Assembly (NCBI RefSeq): GCF_023016155.1
Contig: NZ_JALKBG010000006.1
Span: 558,001-622,000 of the forward strand
Reading direction: 5' to 3'
From: Aliiroseovarius sp. F20344
GTDB taxonomy: Bacteria; Pseudomonadota; Alphaproteobacteria; Rhodobacterales; Rhodobacteraceae
Length of the DNA stretch: 64,000 nt
In this document: in pieces, positions 3,122-5,457 of the stretch
How the letters are laid out: the number at the start of each line of letters is the position of its first letter
Numbering within the stretch: position 1 is the first letter of the stretch
Program-made: the position numbers and the translations under genes
Notes under the pieces: model-generated
Databases searched by the model: none
What the model saw: the letters and a program-made list of their open reading frames with translations, nothing else
Told to the model about the DNA's origin: nothing

Positions 3122-3814
3122 ATGACCATCAAGGCCCTTCTCTTTGATAAAGACGGCACGCTTTTTCACTTCAAAGCCACATGGGAAGCGTGGACACATA
3201 AGGTGCTTTTGCGTCTGACCAATGGGGATGTCGATTGGGCCACGCGTATTGGTCATGATGTCGGGTTTGACATGGAGGCGCAGGAATTCGCCCCCGATAG
3301 CGTGGTAATTGCGGGCACGCCGGCTGAAATTGTGATCGCCTTGCAAAAGCACGTCGACATGCCTTCGGGTGAGTTGGAAAGAATACTTAACGACGAGGCT
3401 GAAACCGCCCCGCAAGTCGAGGCTGTCGCGCTTGTCCCATTGCTAAATCATCTGCGCGAAAGAGGGCTGGCCCTTGGTGTGGCAACGAACGATGCAGAAC
3501 GCCCTGCAAGGCAGCATTTGCAGAGTGCAAAAGTTTCCGATCTGTTTGATTTCATCTCCGGATATGACAGCGGAAATGGTGTAAAGCCAGATGCGAGCCC
3601 ATGCTTGGCATTCGCGCACCATATCGATGTCCCTGCGATGCATGTGGGAATGGTCGGTGATAGCCTGCACGATCTGAAGGCCGGACGCGCTGCAGGAATG
3701 AAAACCATCGGTGTTCTTACCGGGGTCGCCACACGGGATGAGCTGCACCCCTTTGCGGATGTTGTTCTTGCTGATATCGGCGAAATTCCGGCTTGGTTGG
3801 ACCAACTGGTTTAG
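3122..3814 (+). CDS. HAD-superfamily phosphatase, phosphoglycolate phosphatase-like
   Basis: A 230-residue HAD hydrolase. Motif I is FDKDGTLF near residues 8-15, with the nucleophile Asp and the general acid Asp two residues on; motif II is the Thr in GVATND (about residue 120); motif III is Lys in NGVKPDASP; motif IV is GMVGDSLHDLKAGRAAGM. The alpha-helical cap between residues 20 and 100 places it with Gph/PGP-type HADs, which dephosphorylate 2-phosphoglycolate or related small phosphoesters. It begins with a good ribosome site (CAGGAG) six bases before the ATG and follows DUF3572 closely. The exact substrate cannot be read from the sequence. Confidence 0.83.
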   Translation: MTIKALLFDKDGTLFHFKATWEAWTHKVLLRLTNGDVDWATRIGHDVGFDMEAQEFAPDSVVIAGTPAEIVIALQKHVDMPSGELERILNDEAETAPQVEAVALVPLLNHLRERGLALGVATNDAERPARQHLQSAKVSDLFDFISGYDSGNGVKPDASPCLAFAHHIDVPAMHVGMVGDSLHDLKAGRAAGMKTIGVLTGVATRDELHPFADVVLADIGEIPAWLDQLV

Positions 3815-3889: not shown

Positions 3890-4480
3890 ATGCATGGCTT
3901 GATCCTGTGGACATTCGAATTTTTTGTGCGCCTGACCTATGGAAATCAGGTGTGGACTGGTGTGTTGTCCAAGCTCGACCTTAGCCTCAATGCGGTTGAA
4001 CCACTGTTTCACTATGATGATCAGGTTGGGCTGTCGATCCTTCAGCAATTGGCCGTTGACCTTAATCGGGATCGGCAATCATTGCTGGAAGATTTCGGCA
4101 CGTTCCTAGTAACTGATACGCGGGTTGAAAGAGTACGCAGATTGCTGCGGTTCGGTGGGGTTGACTACACGGATTTTCTTCACTCTCTTGAGGACCTTAA
4201 AGGGCGTTCGCTTCTGGCTGTGCCGGACCTACACCTACCGAATATTCAAGTGGATGAACGGCAGCCGCATCGCTTTGAAATCACATGCGAAAACATTCCG
4301 AAAGGCGCGCCTTACGTGCTTTTAGGCGTGCTGCGGGCTCTGGCTGATGATTTTGGCTCTCTGGTTTTTTTAGAGGTGACTGCCGAGACCGCCGACAATG
4401 TCGTCATCACAGCAGACCTGCTTGAGTGCCAACACGCAGAAGGGCGTGAGTTTTTGTGGGCAACAGGTGGCGTATCATGA
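3890..4480 (+). CDS. H-NOX (heme NO-binding) domain-like protein lacking the heme histidine
   Basis: A 196-residue single-domain protein with the H-NOX pattern throughout: MHGLILWTFEFFV at the start, the helical N-terminal subdomain to about 85, then the distal segment VDYTDFLHSLEDLKGRSLLAVPD and LHLPNI. Aligning by eye to bacterial H-NOX proteins (FLxSLxxIH...YPxxxLP), the proximal heme-ligand His falls on Lys104, and the YxSxR heme-propionate motif is absent (region 127-134 reads HRFEITCE). Heme binding is therefore doubtful, though His98 lies one turn and a half earlier. ATG at 3890 gives the family's usual M-x-G start; an in-frame ATG nine bases upstream is possible. Its stop overlaps the start of the HNOBA-GGDEF gene (ATGA at 4477-4480), so the two are translationally coupled and likely form a complex that controls c-di-GMP synthesis. 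The fold assignment is confident; the signal sensed is unknown. Confidence 0.8.
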   Translation: MHGLILWTFEFFVRLTYGNQVWTGVLSKLDLSLNAVEPLFHYDDQVGLSILQQLAVDLNRDRQSLLEDFGTFLVTDTRVERVRRLLRFGGVDYTDFLHSLEDLKGRSLLAVPDLHLPNIQVDERQPHRFEITCENIPKGAPYVLLGVLRALADDFGSLVFLEVTAETADNVVITADLLECQHAEGREFLWATGGVS

Positions 4481-5457
4481 ATATGGAACGGCCAATTCCC
4501 TTCACTTGTGGTGTTCTTGATCGCGTTCTGCCGATGCACCTGATGATAGACGCAAAGGGGATCATTCAGCACGCCGGCCCAACCATCCAAAAGGTGTTTG
4601 GGGATCGCGACGTTGTCGGGCGAAACGTTTTTGGGTTGCTGGAGCTCAAACGGCCAAGAAATATCAAGCGGATTGAAGATGTTCGGGGAATCGACACCAA
4701 ACGTGTTCGGCTGAAGATCCGAGACGAATATGAAACGCCTTTGACGGGGGCCGTTGCGTTTATGCCCGATTTGAACTGCGTTCTGTTGAACCTCTCTTTT
4801 GGCTATTCCATCGCAGAGGCCGTCGCGCGCTATGAATTGACGGGGTCAGATTTCGCCCCCACCGAACTGGCCGTCGAAATGCTGTATCTGGTAGAAGCAA
4901 AGACAGCAGCTATGGACATTGCAAGCCAACTTGCACACCGACTTCATGACGAAAAAGAAGTCGCCAAAAATGAGGCGCAGACGGACGGGCTAACAGGTTT
5001 GGCCAACCGACGTGCGCTTGATTTGCGTTTTGGCCGCCAGTTGAAACGCAATGTGCCGTTTTCGCTGATGCATCTGGACCTCGACTACTTCAAATCCGTC
5101 AATGACACCCATGGTCATGCGGCGGGGGATGCGGTGCTCGAAGCAGTGGCTGATGTTTTGCAACAAGAGACGCGCGAAGTGGATCTGGTCGCGCGTGTGG
5201 GGGGGGATGAATTTGTGATTGTTCTGGACAATCTCGTTTGCCCAGCACGCTTGGAAAAAATCGCCGCCAGACTGATCCAGCGTATCGAAAAGCCCGTTGT
5301 TTTCAGGGATATTGAATGCGGAGTGTCGGCCAGTATTGGTGTGGTGCTATCGACCAGTTATGTGCATCCAGATCCCTTGGAAATGGCCGAAGATGCGGAT
5401 CAGGCACTGTATGCCTCAAAGCGTGCTGGCAGAGCTGCATTTACGGTAAGCCGATAG
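4477..5457 (+). CDS. HNOBA-like PAS / coiled-coil / GGDEF diguanylate cyclase
   Basis: A 326-residue protein. Residues about 12-130 resemble the heme-NO-binding-associated (HNOBA) PAS-like domain of soluble guanylate cyclase: HLMIDAKGIIQHAGPTIQKV followed by an LLELKRPRNI segment equivalent to the F-x-x-x-RP motif. Residues about 133-168 form a charged signalling helix (VEMLYLVEAKTAAMDIASQL onward). The GGDEF domain follows, with DGLTGLANRR at 170-179, active site GGDEF at 242-246 and an intact RxxD product-inhibition site (REVD, 233-236), so it should make c-di-GMP. The gene starts within the stop of the H-NOX-like gene. Together they are a split two-protein analogue of soluble guanylate cyclase with GGDEF in place of the cyclase domain. 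The output domain is certain; the HNOBA call is by pattern and position. Confidence 0.83.
   Translation: MNMERPIPFTCGVLDRVLPMHLMIDAKGIIQHAGPTIQKVFGDRDVVGRNVFGLLELKRPRNIKRIEDVRGIDTKRVRLKIRDEYETPLTGAVAFMPDLNCVLLNLSFGYSIAEAVARYELTGSDFAPTELAVEMLYLVEAKTAAMDIASQLAHRLHDEKEVAKNEAQTDGLTGLANRRALDLRFGRQLKRNVPFSLMHLDLDYFKSVNDTHGHAAGDAVLEAVADVLQQETREVDLVARVGGDEFVIVLDNLVCPARLEKIAARLIQRIEKPVVFRDIECGVSASIGVVLSTSYVHPDPLEMAEDADQALYASKRAGRAAFTVSR

Follow-up and report, generated by a model that had tools for sequence, protein, structure and literature searches.

Two genes on the plus strand of a 64-kb window of Aliiroseovarius sp. F20344 DNA (the window being the whole stretch that was analysed, 64,000 nucleotides) overlap at their stop and start codons as ATGA (Table 1), confirming the gene pair named in a preliminary description of this DNA. 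The upstream gene encodes P0001, an H-NOX-like protein, and the downstream gene encodes P0002, a predicted diguanylate cyclase. The ATG chosen as the P0001 start agrees with the MHG start found throughout the alignment of its class. P0001 matches the HNOB profile PF07700 over residues 2-157 (65.6 bits, E 6.8e-18, cut-off 25.5), which bears out the family membership proposed earlier, and an NCBIfam search returned no model for P0001. In P0002 both the GGDEF site and the RxxD motif expected of a diguanylate cyclase are present and intact, again as first described. For the description of P0002 as HNOBA-like there is a marginal match to PF07701 (26.1 bits, narrowly above the cut-off of 23.4) that covers only profile positions 3-69 of 216. 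The order HNOB, HNOBA, cyclase is that of eukaryotic soluble guanylate cyclase, but here it is divided between two proteins and ends in a GGDEF (c-di-GMP) enzyme rather than a cGMP cyclase. The alpha subunit of soluble guanylate cyclase also has an H-NOX domain without heme.

Table 1. Features of the gene pair, in window coordinates (residue numbers in brackets)
Feature	Position	Strand	Evidence
H-NOX-like protein P0001, 196 aa, Group 5 class	3890..4480	+	PF07700 65.6 bits; within class clade
Class signature RRLLRFGG (83-90)	4136..4159	+	R84 227, L85 228, R87 228 of 228; canonical H-NOX has gaps or other residues
Lys104 codon, at the site of the proximal heme His in canonical H-NOX	4199..4201	+	Alignment to Nostoc H-NOX and 43 canonical relatives
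CENIP (133-137) at the YxSxR site	4286..4300	+	YxSxR in 0/228 class and 41/43 canonical proteins
Class signature ADDFGSL (152-158; class consensus ADDYGAL)	4343..4363	+	A152 225, D153 225, Y155 223, G156 227, L158 224 of 228
C-terminal class motif GRxFxL (185-190)	4442..4459	+	G185 203, R186 208, F188 224, L190 220 of 228
ATGA start/stop codon overlap	4477..4480	+	Sequence
HNOBA-GGDEF diguanylate cyclase P0002, 326 aa (activity predicted)	4477..5457	+	GGDEF 141.4 bits; HNOBA 26.1 bits
Cyclase RxxD motif (233-236)	5173..5184	+	Five residues ahead of GGDEF in 225/229 partners
Cyclase GGDEF motif (242-246)	5200..5214	+	GG[DE]EF in 229/229 partners

In a phmmer search against proteins of solved structure, L103-K104 of P0001 fell opposite L104-H105 of the Nostoc H-NOX (4iah/2o09, E 3.3e-8), whose His105 we take to be the proximal heme ligand. 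Lys104 is therefore correctly placed at the proximal His position in the preliminary description, and the YxSxR motif is absent as it reported, with C133-E-N-I-P in its place. P0001 thus shares a fold family with canonical NO-sensing H-NOX, but lacks both the proximal His and the YxSxR by which heme-based NO/O2-sensing members are recognised. The AlphaFold model of P0001, built from five sequences, is of low confidence (pLDDT 56, with residues 77-116 below 50). When this model was used as a Foldseek query, ranks 1-47 were all H-NOX proteins or soluble guanylate cyclase chains and the best match was the Nostoc H-NOX 2o09 (E 4.9e-9, TM 0.48), so that P0001 is predicted, at the confidence of this model, to have the H-NOX fold.

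Relatives were surveyed in 394 genomes of the bacterial family of Aliiroseovarius sp. F20344, sampled at nearly one per genus. HNOB matches were found in 296 of these genomes and matches to P0001 in 286; in G004 and G294 at least, the matching protein is a canonical H-NOX. The loci fetched yielded 274 HNOB proteins, and assignment to the better-scoring of two profiles made for this survey placed 231 nearer the class of P0001 and 43 with canonical H-NOX. The alignment comprises the 271 proteins of at least 150 residues, three shorter ones being left out. Identical rows, rows with a best domain score below 30 bits and those under 150 aa were removed before counting. The class proteins of full length that were counted number 228, of which four are from named loci and the others from 223 genomes, with two from G246. 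HNOB proteins were extracted from 246 sources, which represent part of all HNOB matches; 204 had the class protein only, 24 had both kinds and 18 had the canonical kind only. A separate draw of 385 genomes from the taxonomic class gave 10 matches to P0001. Four of them, at 250-281 bits, are from the bacterial family of Aliiroseovarius sp. F20344. The remaining six score 57-111 bits and all carry His and Y-x-S-x-R; one is G294, also of this family, and five come from outside it. In the 385-genome sample the class is thus seen in this bacterial family only. Among viral contigs, 52 stretches matched a pattern and none of them encodes a relative. In G115, G176, G226, G271, G273 and G036 the class member has an in-frame stop codon or is divided between two reading frames.

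At position 104 the 228 class proteins have Pro (162), His (17), Gln (9), Arg (9), Asn (7), Ser (6), Ala (6), Gly (4), Glu (3), Lys (3), Asp (1) or Tyr (1), whereas the 43 canonical proteins have His (42) or Gln (1). The three Lys carriers are P0001, A. halocynthiae and G042, and even among the six nearest relatives, P0001 included, the residues are K, K, H, S, R and R; five of these six are Aliiroseovarius or belong to the genus group of strain F20344, and the sixth (L034) is a MAG whose name goes no further than Alphaproteobacteria. Conservation of the Lys substitution in relatives, on which the preliminary description had made its wider claim depend, was therefore not borne out, and Lys was rejected as a conserved new ligand. 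Meanwhile, YxSxR is missing from all 228 class proteins and present in 41 of the 43 canonical proteins of the same survey.

Columns 104, 133, 135 and 138 were masked for a FastTree phylogeny, in which the class is a single clade with support 99 and a long stem (1.70). The clade is found in most sampled genera of the family. The row nearest to it is a canonical H-NOX (L002, from G294) with both His and YxSxR and with a GGDEF gene beside it, and is a candidate picture of the class ancestor. Within the class 28 columns are at least 95% conserved, and in 21 of them canonical H-NOX has another or no consensus residue; these class-specific columns include Trp22, Glu67, Asp68, most of RRLLRFGG and ADDYGAL, and the C-terminal F-x-L. 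P0001 itself has Phe for the signature Tyr155 and Trp for Leu190, and columns 186-190 are gaps in 41 of the 43 canonical rows.

The scattered His residues at position 104 require at least 16 changes between His and non-His for 17 His rows, and the position as a whole at least 52 residue changes. Under a two-state model the class root is His with probability 0.013 (stationary prior) or 0.10 (flat prior), and loss-only evolution from a His ancestor is disfavoured by 2.5 log units against a model that allows gains (lnL -61.9 vs -59.4). The root-state estimates and the poorer loss-only fit together favour a single early loss of His, with sporadic His appearing afterwards, support inside the tree being moderate. 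His104 was also rejected as the sign of a retained heme site: His-bearing members keep 14.00 of 71 canonical consensus residues and the others 14.30, so the His is not part of an otherwise preserved site. None of 1994 tests for residues associated with His104 survives correction, and the rows compared are related; the best uncorrected associations were Ser at 8 (p 2.7e-4), Ser at 46 (3.5e-4) and Trp at 135 (p 4.9e-4), the last found in 8 of 17 His-bearing and 23 of 211 other class members, a difference that is not significant after correction. Among the fetched loci, none of the 17 His-bearing class genomes yielded a canonical copy.

Pro117, at a position that we take to be heme-contacting in canonical H-NOX, is invariant in the class (228/228) and in the canonical proteins, and the glycines of the hinge region are kept in class proteins, leaving room for a pocket that accepts some ligand. 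The locus L066 (G035:C1:2969300-2971600), which we take to be that of the Dinoroseobacter shibae H-NOX, belongs to the same class and has the same cyclase neighbour, but it is one of the 17 with His104 and carries CxWxR. The D. shibae protein reportedly senses NO through heme and inhibits Dgc1 (PMC8846402, PMC7232146), and NO stimulates Paracoccus denitrificans biofilm, in the authors' model partly through H-NOX (PMC5588039). These reports, with the retention of Pro117 and other fold residues, speak for the reading that P0001 still binds heme, through another ligand or through none, and still senses NO; we regard this as unlikely. Since L066 has His104, the D. shibae result is no evidence for Lys or Pro members. 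Furthermore, no alternative His or Cys is conserved class-wide, with counts of 199 for His2, 143 for His76, 122 for His98 and 115 for Cys133 among the 228, and position 2 is mostly Lys in canonical H-NOX (36/43). His98, the residue that had been singled out for checking as a possible proximal ligand, does not take that position in the sequence alignment; it lies six residues upstream of position 104, occurs in 122 of 228 relatives and was rejected as a substitute. A zinc/Cys redox switch was likewise rejected, as no column has more than 115 Cys. The class alignment contains no conserved C-terminal Cys cluster of the Vibrio cholerae Zn/Cys H-NOX type, and within columns 1-192 only 11, 14, 55 and 133 have more than 20 Cys among the 228 rows, none of them C-terminal.

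The retained glycines and Pro117, set beside the lost heme-specific residues, could also mean that the former heme pocket holds a different ligand (lipid-like, a porphyrin precursor or another metabolite) which the pair senses, and PMC8738867, on the group of proteins discussed below, states that no trigger is known. Against this, position 104 tolerates 12 different residues, which does not suggest a single conserved ligand contact there, and we consider sensing of such a ligand improbable.

A P0002-related cyclase follows 229 of the 231 class genes. The two exceptions are the fragment L231 and L181, for which the stretch ends 111 bases downstream. Such a neighbour was found, in a search with P0002 only, beside 2 of 43 canonical genes, for which 2/30 is the fair count because 13 of the 43 stretches have fewer than 600 bases downstream. 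GGDEF is intact in all 229 partners and RxxD in 225; in the 227 partners that could be aligned, R233 is present in 224, D236 in 226 and every GGDEF residue in 227. Natural H-NOX-GGDEF fusions were sought by listing long open frames, and no fusion was confirmed among the 231 class rows. Over the 227 pairs of proteins, H-NOX distances correlate with those of the N-terminal part of the cyclase given the GGDEF part (partial r 0.61, a value that 0 of 200 permutations reached, although the N-terminal part is more variable and this variability alone could raise it) and less with those of the GGDEF part given the N-terminal part (partial r 0.31).

The preliminary description had raised the prospect of a heme-free H-NOX class. 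A class in which loss of the His is conserved does emerge, but it is not new: a fifth and very large H-NOX cluster (Group 5), found with a P. denitrificans sequence, was published in 2022, with less than 10% proximal His, mostly Pro and no conserved Cys, and how its members sense anything is a question that the paper itself poses (PMC8738867). The surveyed class resembles Group 5 in its 17/228 His, 162/228 Pro, Cys of at most 115/228 and GGDEF neighbour, and P0001 differs from the usual member in having Lys at 104. P0001 is assigned to Group 5 by its relationship to P. denitrificans, by these counts and by its neighbour, rather than by a rerun of the published network. When aligned with the class, the protein of P. 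denitrificans HAMBI_2443 (L301) shows both RRLLR and MADDYG, which are motifs of the class; it is 38.1% identical to P0001 over 90% of P0001 and has Pro at residue 104. P0001 is thus a new Lys-bearing member of an already described class. The present survey extends the account of PMC8738867 with a test of the clade, with the class signatures and the counts of neighbours, and with the finding that no sampled class protein retains YxSxR.

The H-NOX proteins of P. denitrificans and Rhodobacter sphaeroides are reported to lack the axial His (PMC5588039). The P. denitrificans HnoX-DgcA system (Pden_3719/Pden_3720) resembles the window pair in its overlapping genes and in this absence (PMC5588039), and differs in having Pro (HAMBI_2443) where P0001 has Lys. 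A P. denitrificans hnoX mutant underproduces biofilm and a mutant without both cyclases overproduces it, from which the authors suggest that DgcA is inhibited by H-NOX (PMC5588039). Given the Pro at 104, this phenotype indicates that a class protein without His matters in the cell. However, c-di-GMP in P. denitrificans was below detection and could not be quantified (PMC12582929), so inhibition of c-di-GMP synthesis by H-NOX is not directly supported there.

At the level of the class, the sequences show H-NOX family proteins that have lost the proximal ligand and YxSxR, carry conserved residues of their own and have an intact cyclase as a near-constant neighbour. The pair in the window is probably best understood as a Group 5 H-NOX with its own diguanylate cyclase, the former serving as a regulatory subunit without a canonical heme that would probably restrain the latter. 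Canonical His-ligated heme would no longer be used for NO sensing. Instead, the H-NOX-like protein would be translated together with the cyclase as its regulatory subunit, would dock on the HNOBA region at the N-terminus of this enzyme and, when docked, would restrain c-di-GMP synthesis in Aliiroseovarius sp. F20344. It may be fixed near the conformation of NO-bound H-NOX, and the shared glycines may still permit switching by another ligand or partner. More tentatively, since it could well prove otherwise, we suggest that a single loss on the stem of the clade removed the canonical heme site, that the heme-independent subunit has since been co-inherited with the HNOBA part of the cyclase and tuned to it, and that His104 has been regained repeatedly by drift, making D. 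shibae an exception and not a model for the class. The observation in the preliminary description is real, and its interpretation is in part supported by the sequence comparisons.

A sensor domain named for heme is without its heme ligand in most of the genomes sampled, yet is retained beside an intact c-di-GMP enzyme. The survey supplies class residues that can serve as targets for testing, and results from the His-bearing D. shibae may not transfer to its Pro and Lys relatives.

Lys104 is unusual, and the in-frame stops in a few relatives (G115, G176, G226, G271 and G273) raise the thought that the P0001 gene once encoded a sensor and is now decaying. This is very improbable: compared with Aliiroseovarius halocynthiae the gene has a pN/pS of 0.144/0.757 over 196 codons, its class signatures are mostly intact and the overlap with an intact cyclase gene is kept. 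The P0002 gene gives 0.154/0.831 in the same comparison, synonymous sites being saturated for both genes, and these substitution patterns indicate purifying selection on the two.

The Aliiroseovarius sp. F20344 genome (G000) has one HNOB gene, three GGDEF genes and two EAL matches, one of which falls in the third GGDEF gene. It encodes two NnrS-family proteins, and a search for copper nitrite reductase, the one NO source covered, gave nothing above the curated cut-off. A second diguanylate cyclase gene (response regulator and GGDEF, PleD-like) lies upstream of the pair at 1319-2704 on the minus strand, bringing two of the three GGDEF genes of the genome together, and a HAD hydrolase gene lies at 3122-3814 on the plus strand; both occur upstream in the same orientation in four near relatives (L032-L035). 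Upstream sequence of 1 kb or more was available for 92 class loci. A trimethylamine-methyltransferase-like gene is found upstream on the same strand in 31 of them, and 15 of the 92 have a HAD hydrolase similar to the one in the window. The figure of gene neighbourhoods in PMC8738867 lists both families among its abbreviations.
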